From assembly GCA_030678995.1 (NCBI GenBank), contig JAUXTQ010000004.1, positions 1 to 64,000 of the forward strand: a DNA stretch of 64,000 bases. Direction: 5' to 3'. The notes under the pieces are model-generated. The model saw only the letters and a list, made by a program, of their open reading frames with translations. It did no database searches and was not told the origin of the DNA. Position 1 is the first letter of the stretch; each line of letters starts with the position of its first letter. The position numbers and the translations under genes are program-made. Positions 7,942-42,862 of the stretch are shown piece after piece. Source of the stretch: Caulobacter sp. Lineage in GTDB: Bacteria > Pseudomonadota > Alphaproteobacteria > Caulobacterales > Caulobacteraceae.

Positions 7942-7980
7942 GGGGACGTGGCGGAACCGGTAGACGCAGCGGACTTAAAA
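7942..7980 (+). pseudogene. 5' half of host tRNA-Leu(UAA), truncated at attL
   Basis: The sequence runs from the acceptor strand GGGGACG through the D-arm (GTGGCGGAACCGGTAGACGC) to the anticodon loop, ending in the core GGACTTAAAA (7971-7980). The next bases (GCCAATTAAATC) do not continue the tRNA. The missing 3' half is at 42813-42862. Joined across the core, the two halves make a complete tRNA with a perfect 7-bp acceptor stem (GGGGACG/CGTCCCC) and anticodon UAA. The gene is therefore disrupted, not regenerated, at this end. Confidence 0.93.
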
Positions 7981-8059: not shown

Positions 8060-8077
8060 TAGCACATGTCTAGCACA
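8060..8077 (+). promoter_or_regulatory. Left integrase arm-type sites (two TAGCACA repeats)
   Basis: TAGCACA occurs at 8060-8066 and 8071-8077 in direct orientation, 80 bases inside attL. The same heptamer occurs twice, in the same orientation, at 42725-42731 and 42737-42743, 60 bases inside attR. Paired short repeats on both sides of the core are the expected arm-type binding sites of a tyrosine integrase. Confidence 0.65.
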
Positions 8078-9432: not shown

Positions 9433-9730
9433 GCGGGCGTGGCGGAATTGGTAGACGCAACGGACTTGAGCCATCGTTGAGTGCCCTGGTGGAAACGTCA
9501 GGTGCAGAACCGCTCAAATTCGGGGAACCCTGTCAGATGGCAATCCCGAGCCAAGCCCCGGTCCCACCGGGGAAGGTGTAGAGACTAGACGGGCGGCGCC
9601 TACGGCCTAGCGGCTACGGCGAAGGGATAGTCCAGACCACGAACGCCTCGCGGCGGCGGCGAAAGTCGAAGTGGTACGAAAATCCGTTGGGCGTAAGCCC
9701 GTGCCGGTTCGATTCCGGCCGCCCGCACCA
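9433..9730 (+). tRNA. tRNA-Leu(UAA) interrupted by a group I intron, carried by the element
   Basis: The 5' exon (9433-9467) has acceptor GCGGGCG, a D-arm and half the anticodon loop ending CTT. The 3' exon (9679-9730) begins AAAATCCG, includes a long variable arm and T-arm (GGTTCGATTCC), and ends CGCCCGC plus an encoded ACCA. Spliced, the anticodon loop is CTTAAAA with anticodon UAA, cut between positions 34 and 35 as in cyanobacterial tRNA-Leu(UAA). The acceptor stem differs from the disrupted host gene, so this is not a copy of it. It begins 31 bases after the integrase stop and could be co-transcribed with int. Confidence 0.95.
9468..9678 (+). ncRNA. Group I self-splicing intron in tRNA-Leu(UAA), 211 nt
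   Basis: The intron ends in the obligatory G (9678) and follows a U (9467). The exon end ACUU can pair with an internal guide GAGU near 9480, forming P1 with the U-G wobble at the splice site. Conserved core elements can be seen: CAATCCCGAGCCAAGCC (9541-9557, P/Q region), TGTAGAGACTAGACGGG (R, near 9577) and AAGGGATAGTCC (S, 9622-9633). These match the cyanobacterial tRNA-Leu intron closely. No homing endonuclease ORF is present, so it is probably an immobile autocatalytic intron that travels with the tRNA. Confidence 0.93.
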
Positions 9731-9750: not shown

Positions 9751-11166
9751 CTATCGCTGAAGCACTGCGGTCGGCGAGCAGATGACCAGAGCATGAGATC
9801 CTCTCGTCATGGCGACGTAGAGGTTCTTGGCGTCAAGGTCTGCCGCATTCAGGATGACCGCTACTTCTGCTTCCAAACCCTTGAGGAGCAGCGTGCTCCC
9901 TACCGCGCGCTTGGGTAGGGGACGGCCGAGCAGGCGGTTCTGTTCGCGGACTTTTACGGCTGCCTCGTAGAGGGTCGCGGCGTCCGCCCCATCACATGAG
10001 CGCAGGGTCTTGATGCAGGCCTGCAAGACCCCAGGACGATGCGACCGCACACCGCCCTGCTTTCCGATCTCAACCAAGAGATCGACTGCTCCGCGAAGGG
10101 ATGGAGCGGCCGCAAAGGCAAGCGCAGTCGTCTCCGCATCTGTCGCAGGATTGCGAGCAGTTCCGCCTTGGAGCGATTTGACGCGCTGCAGGAACGCGTT
10201 GCTGCCGACATTGGTCATTACACTGCCAGCGAAGTTCACGACGTGGGCGAGAACATCGGCAGACGCCAGGTCCAAGCCTTTGGCGAACGTGACGAGGTCT
10301 TTCAGATCAACGCTTTCAACAGTGATCGCGCCCGGCGTCTGACCGGCGAAGTCTCGTTGCCCCTGCGGCTTGGTGCTGTCGCCAATGATTAGGACACTGC
10401 CTTGAGCAGTAGGTGAGGGCGTTCGGCCAGCGCCAAGTCGACGTTGGTGGTCCTCCGTCCCATCCAAATGCACCCAGGTGACGTGAGGCGGAGCCGCCCG
10501 AAGGTCCACAGGGTCGCCCCGTAGTAAGCGTTGGCGGGCATCCAGAAGCCAGGCACCGAAATCCTCGGTGCCCGCGTTCCGCCACCGCCACGGTGTCGTG
10601 AGTGCCCCTGCAATGGGGAAACGGACACAGACTTCTTGGTCCCAGTCCGGCATCTTGCCGCCGAACGTGAAGATTGCCTGCATCGGATCGCCCAGAACGG
10701 CGGTCGGAAGAACCTTTGCGGCAAACCAAACAATGGCGTGCTGCACGAAGTTGCAGTCCTGATACTCGTCCACAATCAAGCGGGAGAAGCTCGCTGCCAG
10801 CACGTCATTGACGTGTCCGGCTTTCAGCAATTGTGCGGCGGCCGTTCGGATAGACGGATAGTCCGTCTTGGCCTCCAAATTTAGTATGGCCGGGTCGTGT
10901 CCGCTTCGCTCCGGAAACATCGAGATGAGGCGCATTGCCCAGCCATCGATGGTCGAGAGGCGATAGGCTCGGGAGGGAACACCGGCTCGGTCCAGGCGTC
11001 CTCGCAACGCCACGACGCCAGCGTTGGTGTGGGTGAGAATGAGGATGGGTTTCGGCCCATCGTGGCGCACGAGAGCCTGCGCAATCAGATGCGTCTTTCC
11101 ACAGCCAGCCGGGGCGGTAACCGATCCGCGGTCGATCGCCAGTAGATCGACCTCAGTTTCCGCCAT
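9751..11166 (-). CDS. gajB: Gabija protein GajB, UvrD/PcrA-like helicase
   Basis: About 471 residues from the ATG at 11166; a TTG at 11181 would add five. It has Walker A (APAGCGKT, residues 18-25), Walker B (LIVDEYQDCN), GDPMQAIF, and a C-terminal motif VI (LYVAMTRG), in the UvrD-like order. It overlaps the upstream OLD-family gene by 14 bases, the usual gajA-gajB arrangement. In Gabija, GajB senses DNA ends or unwinds DNA and activates GajA. It is short compared with housekeeping UvrD, which is typical of GajB. Confidence 0.88.
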   Translation of the reverse strand: MAETEVDLLAIDRGSVTAPAGCGKTHLIAQALVRHDGPKPILILTHTNAGVVALRGRLDRAGVPSRAYRLSTIDGWAMRLISMFPERSGHDPAILNLEAKTDYPSIRTAAAQLLKAGHVNDVLAASFSRLIVDEYQDCNFVQHAIVWFAAKVLPTAVLGDPMQAIFTFGGKMPDWDQEVCVRFPIAGALTTPWRWRNAGTEDFGAWLLDARQRLLRGDPVDLRAAPPHVTWVHLDGTEDHQRRLGAGRTPSPTAQGSVLIIGDSTKPQGQRDFAGQTPGAITVESVDLKDLVTFAKGLDLASADVLAHVVNFAGSVMTNVGSNAFLQRVKSLQGGTARNPATDAETTALAFAAAPSLRGAVDLLVEIGKQGGVRSHRPGVLQACIKTLRSCDGADAATLYEAAVKVREQNRLLGRPLPKRAVGSTLLLKGLEAEVAVILNAADLDAKNLYVAMTRGSHALVICSPTAVLQR

Positions 11167-12895
11167 TTTCCATCCACTCAAACAGCTCGTAGATGGTGCT
11201 GGAAAATGCCTGATCGCACGTCTTCAGGTCTGGTCCCACGATGTCTCTGGCCACTCGCTCCATCCACGTAACGGATTTGAACCAGCCAGCCTTCTTTGTG
11301 CGTGAAGCCTTTCCGTAGACGGCACGAATGTCAGGTCCGAGGACTGCGGCGCTGGCCACCAGCGTCCACGCGCCACCAGATGCCGACCGAATGTTTGCAT
11401 CAATCAGGTCCTCGCCATGCAGATCGATGGCAACCCCCAGGAGCTGGGCGATTGCGTTGTCCGACAGGCTGAGAAACAGCTCGTCTTCAAGCGTGCGACC
11501 GTCCCGCCAAACCGTGACTTTGCCGCCCTTTTCGATGAAGGTTTGCTCCAGCTCGGGCGTAGGTTTCACATCGTCATCGCGCAGCGCGGCAACGCGATAT
11601 CCGAGCCCCTGAAATACGCCGCCCCGCTTGAATATCTGGTCGGTGCCGTTGCCATCGACCAGAGCCACTCCCATCGCTGAGAGTGACGGCATGGGCAACG
11701 TCCAGCGATACTGGTCCAGTCCGCGAAGAAGGCCGACCTCACTGGCGCCTTCACAGACGACGACGGTCGGAGCAAGGAGAGCTTCTGGATAGAGGCGGAT
11801 CGTTCCCTGGATGTCGTCAGCCGTGGGAACGACTTGAACGCGGTGGCGACCGTCGGCGGATCGAACAACGTGAAGCTGTGAGGCCTTCAATTCGCAAATC
11901 GCGGCTGGGCAATGCGTGGTCACGAATGCCTGTAGGGGCGGCGTCGTGTCCTTCGCTCCAATCGACCCGAGCAGCCGAGTCACACGGTGAGGTTCCAACC
12001 CGTGTTCGAGTTCGTCCACCAGGATGATGGTCGATTCAGCAGCCGCCTTCCGTTGCAGTCCAGCGATTAGCAAGCGTGTGGAGCCGACACCCAAGCTGCG
12101 GAGCGGGACGCCCGCCTCGTCATGCAGTGAGATCGTCCCGCCACTGAAGGAAACCGAGTGAGAATCGAGCATTGCTTTGAGGCTGGCCCCATAAGCGATG
12201 CCTAGCTCGGTTGCCGTCTCCTCGACGATCGAGAGAGTCGCTTCAAGCTGCTCACCTGCTTGCTCGCCAAAGGCGGCACGAGCCTCTCGGGCAGCTTGGA
12301 CCAATGCAGCGGATGCGTCGGCGCGCTCATCGCTAAGAAGGTTCAACACAGACCCCCTGCGCCAACTCAGATTGTAGTCGGCGACAGCGCCTAGTCGCGT
12401 CGGCGCGATTCTTACTCGATCCGCCCAGGCCAGGTTTCGGGAGAGCCCCTGCGCTGCCGCACGCTTCGATACCAAGGTCCAGCTGGGTTCGAGGTCGCTG
12501 GCGACGGTCAGGTTCAGGGTGAGTGCGGTTTCGTTGGTAGTGCTGGGCTCATCTTCCAACATGCCCAGAATATCAATGTAGCCGCACAGATAGAGCCCAT
12601 AGGCGTCCATAGTCTTGAGAGCATCGCTTAGCTCTCCGATGGTCACGGAGATCGATATGGGATTGTTGACATCGAGGTTGTGAAAGTCGGCATCCGTGAA
12701 TTGGGCATTCCTGCGAGCGCCGAGGCATAGATCGATTGCGTCGAGGATCGTCGACTTACCGCTGTCGCCGGGTCCGATGAGACAGTTGATGCCTGGTGCC
12801 GGGTCCCACAGGAGCTCGGCAATTCCACGGAAATTCTTGATCTCAATTTGTCGGATTCTTGCCACGCGCACACCGTGATTAAGGACGCCATTCAA
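11153..12895 (-). CDS. gajA: Gabija protein GajA, OLD-family ATPase/TOPRIM nuclease
   Basis: A 580-residue protein. The ABC-type ATPase domain has Walker A GPGDSGKST (residues 41-49) after the IEIKNFRG start typical of OLD/SMC-like ATPases, and Walker B IILVDELEHGLEPHR. The C-terminal TOPRIM domain has the acidic VVVCEGASEVGLLRGL and ALVDGNGTD motifs. GajA nicks or cuts phage DNA when nucleotide pools fall. Pairing with an overlapping UvrD-like gene identifies Gabija. The start at 12895 is followed by a possible GTG start near ARIRQIEIKNF, so the first ten residues are uncertain. Confidence 0.88.
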   Translation of the reverse strand: MNGVLNHGVRVARIRQIEIKNFRGIAELLWDPAPGINCLIGPGDSGKSTILDAIDLCLGARRNAQFTDADFHNLDVNNPISISVTIGELSDALKTMDAYGLYLCGYIDILGMLEDEPSTTNETALTLNLTVASDLEPSWTLVSKRAAAQGLSRNLAWADRVRIAPTRLGAVADYNLSWRRGSVLNLLSDERADASAALVQAAREARAAFGEQAGEQLEATLSIVEETATELGIAYGASLKAMLDSHSVSFSGGTISLHDEAGVPLRSLGVGSTRLLIAGLQRKAAAESTIILVDELEHGLEPHRVTRLLGSIGAKDTTPPLQAFVTTHCPAAICELKASQLHVVRSADGRHRVQVVPTADDIQGTIRLYPEALLAPTVVVCEGASEVGLLRGLDQYRWTLPMPSLSAMGVALVDGNGTDQIFKRGGVFQGLGYRVAALRDDDVKPTPELEQTFIEKGGKVTVWRDGRTLEDELFLSLSDNAIAQLLGVAIDLHGEDLIDANIRSASGGAWTLVASAAVLGPDIRAVYGKASRTKKAGWFKSVTWMERVARDIVGPDLKTCDQAFSSTIYELFEWMENGGN

Positions 12896-16530: not shown

Positions 16531-17136
16531 ATGAACCGGCACCCTGACATCGACGGCAGGATGGGGCTGTTCGACGCGGAGGGCTGTCGCAAATACCTGT
16601 GTGCCAGCGAGCGTCGGCGATTCCTCGCGGCGGCGGCGACGGCCGACCTGACGACGCGCCTGTTCTGCCAGCTCCTGGCCATCACCGGCTGCCGTCTCAG
16701 CGAGGCACTGGCGCTTACCCCCAAGCGTCTGGACCCGGAAACTGGCCGCGTGATCTTCCGCACCTTGAAGCGCCGTCGGCGCATCTTCCGCGCCGTGCCG
16801 GTCCCGCCGGATCTCATGCGCGCGCTGCAATTGATGGCAGCTGCGAAGGAGCCGGACGCGCCCCTGTGGGGCTGGTGCCGCCAGACGGGCTGGCGGCATG
16901 TGACGGCAGTGATGGCGCGGGCCGGGATCGCCGGTCCGCAGGCCAGCCCCAAGGGGCTCCGGCACGCGTTCGGCGTGGCGAATGCGGAGAACAATATCCC
17001 CGCATCGCTGACCCAGCGCTGGCTTGGCCATGCCCGTGCCGAGACGACGGCGATTTACCAACAGGCGGTCGGCGGCGAGGAGCGCGCCTTCGCCGAGCGG
17101 CTATGGCGTTTCGGCCGATCCATCGCTGGAGGCTAG
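16531..17136 (+). CDS. Second tyrosine recombinase, short form
   Basis: A 201-residue protein consisting almost only of a catalytic domain: Arg in GCRLSEALAL, Lys-rich beta-hairpin (TLKRRRRIFRAV), LRHAFG, LGHARAETT and Tyr in IYQQ. The arm-binding domain is missing. Such small recombinases often sit within the transfer region of alphaproteobacterial elements, away from the att ends, and may resolve dimers or act on an internal site. It overlaps the next convergent gene by 36 bases. Confidence 0.85.
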   Translation: MNRHPDIDGRMGLFDAEGCRKYLCASERRRFLAAAATADLTTRLFCQLLAITGCRLSEALALTPKRLDPETGRVIFRTLKRRRRIFRAVPVPPDLMRALQLMAAAKEPDAPLWGWCRQTGWRHVTAVMARAGIAGPQASPKGLRHAFGVANAENNIPASLTQRWLGHARAETTAIYQQAVGGEERAFAERLWRFGRSIAGG

Positions 17137-42724: not shown

Positions 42725-42743
42725 TAGCACAGGGATTAGCACA
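42725..42743 (+). promoter_or_regulatory. Right integrase arm-type sites (two TAGCACA repeats)
   Basis: TAGCACA at 42725-42731 and 42737-42743, same orientation and heptamer as the left pair at 8060-8077. They lie 60 bases from the attR core. Between them and attR is an AT-rich stretch suitable for bending. Confidence 0.65.
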
Positions 42744-42802: not shown

Positions 42803-42862
42803 GGACTTAAAATCCGTTGGGCTTCACAGCTCGTGTGGGTTCGACTCCCACCGTCCCCACCA
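42803..42862 (+). pseudogene. attR core and 3' half of host tRNA-Leu(UAA)
   Basis: GGACTTAAAA (42803-42812) continues as TCCGTTGGGCTTCACAGC, a variable arm, the T-arm GGGTTCGACTCCC and CGTCCCC plus ACCA. It completes the 5' half at 7942-7980. With no promoter or 5' half next to it, it cannot be expressed as a tRNA here. Bases 42863-43124 beyond it are non-coding with nothing notable. Confidence 0.93.

Follow-up and report, generated by a model that had tools for sequence, protein, structure and literature searches.

The window, by which we mean the whole 64-kb stretch of DNA analysed here, carries an element of 34.8 kb (7971-42812) that splits the host tRNA-Leu(UAA) gene at its anticodon loop (Table 1). 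Both ends of the element are marked by a copy of a 10-bp attachment core, GGACTTAAAA, and a search for GGACTTAAAATCC allowing up to one mismatch returned two matches, one per element end, where 0.05 would be expected by chance. When the two host halves were joined by script, ARAGORN called one tRNA-Leu(UAA). Neither junction gave a tRNA call by itself, and Islander-type rebuilding of the target was found at neither. The heptamer TAGCACA has six copies in the 64 kb, four of which sit at the two element ends, one pair at each. The tyrosine integrase (P0001) matches the Pfam domains Phage_integrase (27.9 bits) and Phage_int_SAM_3 (24.1 bits), both barely above the cut-off. Its gene is adjoined, inside the element, by a complete tRNA-Leu(UAA) gene, the replacement tRNA. 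The assembly, approximately 90% complete, yielded no further intact UAA gene; this suggests that the replacement tRNA is needed for viable integration.

Table 1. Features of the element, its attachment sites and its replacement tRNA gene (positions in the window)
Feature	Position	Strand	Evidence
Host tRNA-Leu(UAA) 5' half ending in the core; attL	7942..7980	+	no tRNA call alone; intact once joined to right half
Attachment core, left copy, GGACTTAAAA	7971..7980	+	sequence match
Two TAGCACA repeats (8060-8066, 8071-8077), putative arm-type integrase sites	8060..8077	+	role inferred
Tyrosine integrase P0001, 430 aa	8109..9401	+	Pfam; alignment of 13 relatives
Replacement tRNA-Leu(UAA) gene with intron	9433..9730	+	ARAGORN with introns allowed
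Exon 1, last bases ACGGACTT (base 34)	9433..9467	+	sequence, splice reading
Group I intron, 211 nt, last base G	9468..9678	+	RF00028, 40.4 bits; covariation
Exon 2, first bases AAAATCCGT (base 35)	9679..9730	+	sequence, splice reading
Two TAGCACA repeats (42725-42731, 42737-42743), right arm	42725..42743	+	role inferred
Right core copy (42803-42812) and host tRNA-Leu(UAA) 3' half; attR	42803..42862	+	sequence; joined-halves call

The element carries a Gabija defence pair beside the tRNA on the minus strand (9751-12895), made of GajB (9751-11181, 630.7 bits) and GajA (11153-12895, 761.1 bits). A second, short tyrosine recombinase of 201 aa is encoded at 16531-17136 (+; Pfam Phage_integrase, 62 bits). 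Possible further defence or toxin-like cargo lies between 23847 and 41210, with Fic, caspase (Peptidase_C14) and RES domains, an Mrr with a cold-shock domain and a PADLOC 'cll' match. None of the 20 element ORFs scanned with Pfam presented a phage structural domain, and no relative of the integrase was found in the viral contigs or phage records searched. Among plasmid records, 25 matched the integrase; in the three that were examined (H1-H3) no tRNA was called, and two had tRNA 3' pieces upstream of int. An empty site in one family member gave no alignment, since the flanks lack shared DNA similarity. The same genome has a second integrase of this family (L027) on contig C63, beside the 3' half of a tRNA-Leu(UAG) gene. 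The assembly's other place resembling tRNA-Leu(UAA), on contig C52, is in fact the 5' half of a split tRNA-Leu(UAG) gene, at the end of the contig (L002:1503-1548). These two UAG halves are probably the two ends of a second family element, for which no replacement tRNA was seen.

With introns allowed, ARAGORN called a single tRNA in the window, a tRNA-Leu(taa) with a 211-nt intron, and with introns disallowed it called none in the 64 kb. Joining the two exons in silico yielded an intact tRNA-Leu(UAA). The intron lies between bases 34 and 35, which we take to be the position of the cyanobacterial tRNA-Leu(UAA) group I intron. The Rfam group I model RF00028 matched positions 9458-9653 over its full length (40.4 bits, E 6e-9); this falls under the gathering score of 50 bits, so that a default Rfam scan returned nothing, and related introns in L155-L159 scored 50.7-56 bits, above that threshold. 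We aligned 34 of 42 introns picked. In 22 of the 62 predicted pairs both sides had changed with pairing kept, the exon U at the 5' splice site was paired with a guide G in all 34 introns, and the guide pairs with exon bases 31-34; the terminal G of the UAA introns is part of the rule used for splitting and hence provides no independent test. The initial annotation had placed a 211-nt group I intron at 34/35 of a tRNA-Leu(UAA), and this reading of the sequence is correct to the base. On this sequence evidence we treat the intron as a working group I intron. Several intron-containing tRNAs elsewhere were tagged Ser or Phe by ARAGORN because it misplaced the splice site, and these were re-read by rule as Leu(UAA); the tRNA-Phe call in L192 was rejected as a false join.

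We surveyed the integrase family for introns in the accompanying tRNA. The best 80 of 558 integrase relatives were kept from a scan of the genome collection, whole-genome searches added more, and 109 of the resulting 143 loci with an integrase match were labelled by hand. Repeat fetches, integrase fragments (including L031), distant relatives and loci with no readable replacement or rebuilt tRNA (e.g., L063, L067 and L109) were excluded. Relatives inserted at class I tRNAs (Met, Arg, Phe, Gln and Trp) present an intact tRNA upstream of int, which indicates that these members rebuild their target. Members at class II tRNAs (Leu and Tyr) typically have a split half upstream of int and a whole replacement tRNA downstream. 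A single integrase family thus comprises class I targets rebuilt at attL and class II targets that are split and replaced (loci L007-L148). Two loci with a rebuilt target upstream (L025 and L119) also have, 234-256 bp downstream of int, a further tRNA-Met of initiator type whose anticodon stem is different. In six others (L101, L105, L110, L073, L082 and L086), the att core upstream of int has no host tRNA half, and several of them have repeats like those of the right arm; these are possibly circular or tandem forms that show attP.

Among the 84 hand-labelled class II replacements, the intron was found in 52 of the 53 UAA replacements, counting four that stop at a contig edge within the intron (L012, L087, L092 and L093) and one whose intron tRNA lies about 2 kb away (L008), and in only 1 of the 31 other replacements. 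The UAA elements with introns and the intron-free elements interleave on the integrase tree. The combined label UAA plus intron requires 13 changes on a quick tree, at least 8 of them forced by starred branches, and 10 on a careful tree of 83 rows, which omits L014 and 25 rebuilt rows (9-11 changes across bootstraps, of which 6 or more are forced). Among independent pairs with unlike targets, the intron differs in the same direction as the target, with 7 starred pairs on the quick tree (median p 0.016, 0.016-0.063) and 6 on the careful tree (median p 0.031, 0.031-0.125). The association that the initial annotation expected with sister elements is therefore present, and on several integrase branches. 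The wider possibility that it raised, that all anticodon-loop elements of the integrase clade would carry an intron-containing tRNA, did not hold, and we rejected it: CAA elements are mostly intron-free and the class I members rebuild their target. Chance or an assembly artefact was also rejected, because the arrangement recurs among relatives, including nine UAA elements with introns in records not titled MAG (L041, L055, L062, L068, L078, L089, L099, L112 and L113).

We consider it likely, from sequence comparison, that the intron at 34/35 shields the replacement tRNA from the element's own integrase. In this proposal, the tyrosine integrase would place the element into the anticodon loop of tRNA-Leu(UAA) through the 10-bp core, splitting the gene with no rebuilding, as the anatomy of the locus indicates, and the element would supply a whole replacement tRNA-Leu(UAA) in place of the host gene. 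Stripped of its intron, the replacement would share its core, and nearly its stem, with attL and would lie in the same orientation at a distance of 1.5 kb, with int between the two. An integrase recombining attL with such an intron-free replacement would be expected to excise int, and the resulting chimeric tRNA might remain functional; recombination of attP with the replacement would insert circles into it, and an excised circle recombining with its own tRNA would be broken up. The intron would hold the anticodon-arm half-sites apart by 211 bp, at the centre of the region where strand exchange is expected; the expectations on strand exchange follow from the general behaviour of tyrosine recombinases and from the anatomy of the locus. 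With the half-sites separated in the DNA and the intron spliced from the RNA, the tRNA would work and its gene would be no attB. Sister elements at tRNA-Leu(CAA) mostly present base changes in the core, through which they may have been selected to reach the same end.

These CAA elements serve as a natural control. The core GACTTAAAA was found in 47 of the 47 native UAA genes sampled, the split half in the window included. The 84 native CAA genes sampled presented GACTC in 66 cases, GATTC in 15 and other forms in 3, as read by eye and with a search pattern that fixes part of the loop. Intron-free CAA replacements have their own target core altered in 22 of 26 rows, and the core is kept in 3 of 16 integrase clades (grouped by hand). 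The chance that three or fewer of 16 clades keep the core is 6e-7 at the native rate of 66/84 and 0.01 at a rate of one half. The elements without an intron have thus mostly changed their core, as the need to hide the replacement predicts. The single intron-free UAA replacement (L082) has a changed arm that differs at bases 30 and 40. Conversely, the one CAA replacement with an intron (L065:11415-11712) keeps its core; its 234-nt group I intron (51.1 bits) is placed by a seven-pair guide at 33/34, a different point from that of the UAA introns. In three UAA elements (L007, L088 and L099) the 5' stem and loop of the replacement are those of the target, and in a fourth (L093), whose contig stops within the intron, the whole 5' half is, so that nothing but the intron was seen to differ in these loci.

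The correspondence is not without exceptions. Five of the 28 replacements without an intron retain the core (L049, L100, L101, L105 and L107), and 5 of 45 replacements with an intron differ from the target by one base of the compared core (L060, L085, L089, L094 and L128). Core match against intron gave a Fisher p of 1e-9, a value that counts related elements as independent and is in part built in; independent pairs went in the expected direction and were not significant (median p 0.125 and 0.0625). The comparison covers all but 11 of the 84 rows (those absent are three UAG elements and L041, L058, L062, L106, L012, L087, L092 and L093), and for nine rows the target was taken from locus listings, in some cases from attP rather than the host side. 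One adjacent copy (L080) is degenerate and was scored as a mismatch, with an intact CAA copy 9.9 kb away. The three UAG elements have a core that is inverted relative to int and has 1-2 mismatches to the replacement.

The association of UAA targets with introns is partly expected, since native UAA cores are invariant and the guide pairs with exon bases 31-34, so that the arm of an intron-bearing gene could not easily diverge. This guide pairing alone would preserve the core, which leaves room for the view that the intron has no role in recombination: a UAA element would once have captured a native tRNA-Leu(UAA) with its intron, after which tRNA and integrase modules were shuffled. Such genes do exist without an integrase (see below), and the intron tree, on which element introns and other introns are mixed with weak support, does not show separate captures and does not settle their number. 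We nevertheless find this history unlikely. UAA genes without an intron greatly outnumber those with one, and still L082, with its changed arm, is alone in using an intron-free gene as replacement; the cores of CAA replacements diverge well beyond native frequencies; and the intron of L065 occupies another position in a type of element that usually diverges. Still less credible is that the intron regulates the tRNA through splicing or is a selfish homing intron with a preference for the tRNA-Leu(UAA) gene. That group I introns may splice in a condition-dependent manner would suit regulation, but the 65 introns examined measure 201-314 nt, too short for a homing endonuclease gene, and neither regulation nor homing predicts a link to target choice or diverged CAA cores. 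We regard this as very improbable.

Shielding could also be directed at other elements. In an archaeal proposal, the incoming element supplies an intron that then bars later invaders (Sugahara et al. 2012, PMC3293823, of which part was consulted); carried to bacteria, it would mean that the intron and the changed CAA cores guard a now-essential replacement gene from other members of the family rather than from the element's own integrase. Related elements can co-occur, as the second integrase at tRNA-Leu(UAG) in this very genome illustrates. In three cases (L103, L047 and L069), however, the replacement avoids its own core and carries one that other elements of the family target, and this avoidance points to self rather than to rivals. 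A newcomer would moreover supply its own replacement, and therefore its insertion need not kill. Second insertions do occur, given that one genome (G834) has two split 3' halves. Defence against rivals thus appears to us a rather improbable main function, less so only than regulation or homing, and we retain protection from the element's own integrase as the preferred reading.

We then asked how often such introns are found outside these elements. A group I search of 372 genomes of the class gave 32 places in 29 genomes, and the 30 places that came with a locus were read. Fifteen loci, that of the window included, were read as tRNA-Leu(UAA) with an intron, some after re-reading the splice site, and four of the 15 had a family integrase in the fetched stretch. 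One further locus (L158) is part of the element of L008, and another (L166) has a split tRNA half close upstream. This leaves intron-bearing tRNA-Leu(UAA) with no sign of such an element in about 9 of 372 genomes, a floor because the filters drop some weak matches. One of these (L152) may be foreign DNA, its neighbours resembling, by impression, an organelle or cyanobacterial tRNA cluster. The intron is thus rare in other UAA genes (about 9/372) and near-universal in UAA replacements (52/53). The idea that it is confined to elements was rejected, as intron-bearing tRNA-Leu(UAA) genes also occur without a family integrase. In the same class, ARAGORN called introns in tRNA-Arg(CCT) and tRNA-Thr(GGT) at group I matches (L153, L154, L163, L177, L170 and L176), and one CAA gene with an intron (L161) had no family integrase in the fetched stretch. 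Overall, the initial claim of a shielded tRNA copy gains from the association among sister elements and from the changed cores of intron-free elements, and has to be narrowed in that the intron is neither clade-wide nor restricted to elements.

Most hosts seem to live on the intron-bearing tRNA-Leu(UAA), as carriers mostly present split halves of the native gene. Eleven UAA carriers were searched with tRNA-Leu(UAA) patterns, which miss unusual intact genes: seven (G000, G009, G100, G384, G403, G592 and G482) gave only the split half beside int, G326 gave that half and one further match, to a split 3' half, and G115 and G369 gave no match. The last, G423, has an intact intron-free tRNA-Leu(UAA) besides the split half beside int, and the statement that carriers never have another intact UAA gene was accordingly rejected. 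In 12 more carriers, the patterns returned 12 matches in 11 genomes, all of them split 3' halves with no intact gene (two in G834, none in G835). If an element decayed in a host with no other UAA gene, the intron-bearing gene would have to stay. Two genomes may represent this situation, with no family integrase found in G140 (L178) and only integrase pieces in G115 (L187). In G140, a split tRNA-Leu(UAA) half is followed 170 bp downstream by an intron-bearing tRNA (L178:3561-4051) with no family integrase between them, and a degenerate right half lies 15 kb away (~18778). A more general view is that group I introns act as attachment-site insulators, repeatedly recruited by elements that destroy leucine tRNA genes (at 34/35 in UAA and at 33/34 in the CAA replacement of L065), and that they thereby also spread intron-bearing tRNA-Leu genes in bacterial chromosomes. 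We put this forward tentatively, as a possibility that we do not favour as a whole.

The general plan of the element has precedents. In the tRNA-dependent lysogeny of actinobacteriophages, a core of about 10 bp does not rebuild the host tRNA and the element carries the cognate tRNA (Guerrero-Bustamante and Hatfull 2024, PMC10865867). Likewise, the element described here has an attB overlapping a host tRNA gene, a 10-bp core too short to rebuild it and a whole cognate tRNA-Leu(UAA). The lysogeny system concerns phages and tRNA-Lys, with no replacement intron mentioned in the consulted part of that paper, whereas our element, known from its integrase, att sites and an ORF scan, has a group I intron in the core. 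The same authors raise the speculation that the tRNA of one plasmid might serve as attB for the integration of a second (PMC10865867, as far as consulted), which is the same hazard as proposed here. The islands catalogued with Islander share anticodon-centred att sites and tyrosine integrases with our family, and its Met, Arg, Phe, Gln and Trp members rebuild the target as those islands do; the members at Leu and Tyr tRNAs leave it split and supply a complete second gene (PMC4383910, consulted in part). The group I intron of tRNA-Leu(UAA) known from cyanobacteria and plastids resides in a chromosomal or plastid gene, in contrast to the intron of the window, which lies on an integrative element that destroys the host copy (PMC4476775, in the sections consulted).

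The barrier idea itself is not new either. Randau and Soll reportedly proposed a tRNA intron as a barrier at an attachment site, a proposal that Sugahara et al. cite. According to the parts consulted of two papers, an archaeal element brought an intron-containing tRNA-Thr (Sugahara et al. 2012, PMC3293823), and introns have been viewed as integration barriers in archaea, from which the element importing the intron would itself profit (PMC3293823; PMC4390854). The likeness is that an intron-bearing tRNA comes from a mobile element and that its intron is proposed as an attachment-site barrier. The archaeal case, as presented there, concerns an archaeal tRNA intron at one locus and acts against other invaders, whereas ours concerns a group I ribozyme, is recurrent and would act against the element's own integrase (PMC3293823). 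We found no earlier report of a group I intron in the replacement tRNA of an element in the literature searched, which covered few subscription papers. The suggestion that shielding of attB is a new job for a tRNA intron is thereby reduced: as far as searched, the new part is the bacterial group I intron in the barrier role, the element plan and the barrier idea being already known.

Group I introns of bacterial tRNAs are usually regarded as neutral passengers. Here, such an intron would benefit a mobile element in a way that can be tested, and sister elements at another leucine tRNA, mostly intron-free and changed in core, provide a natural control. The finding also bears on a question raised by tRNA-dependent lysogeny, namely how the extra copy of the target on an element escapes attack by that element. 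Finally, it offers a route by which tRNA introns may spread via elements. As these elements replace the host gene and would so spread intron-bearing tRNA-Leu, some native intron-bearing tRNA-Leu(UAA) genes may, if the reading is true, be the remains of decayed elements.
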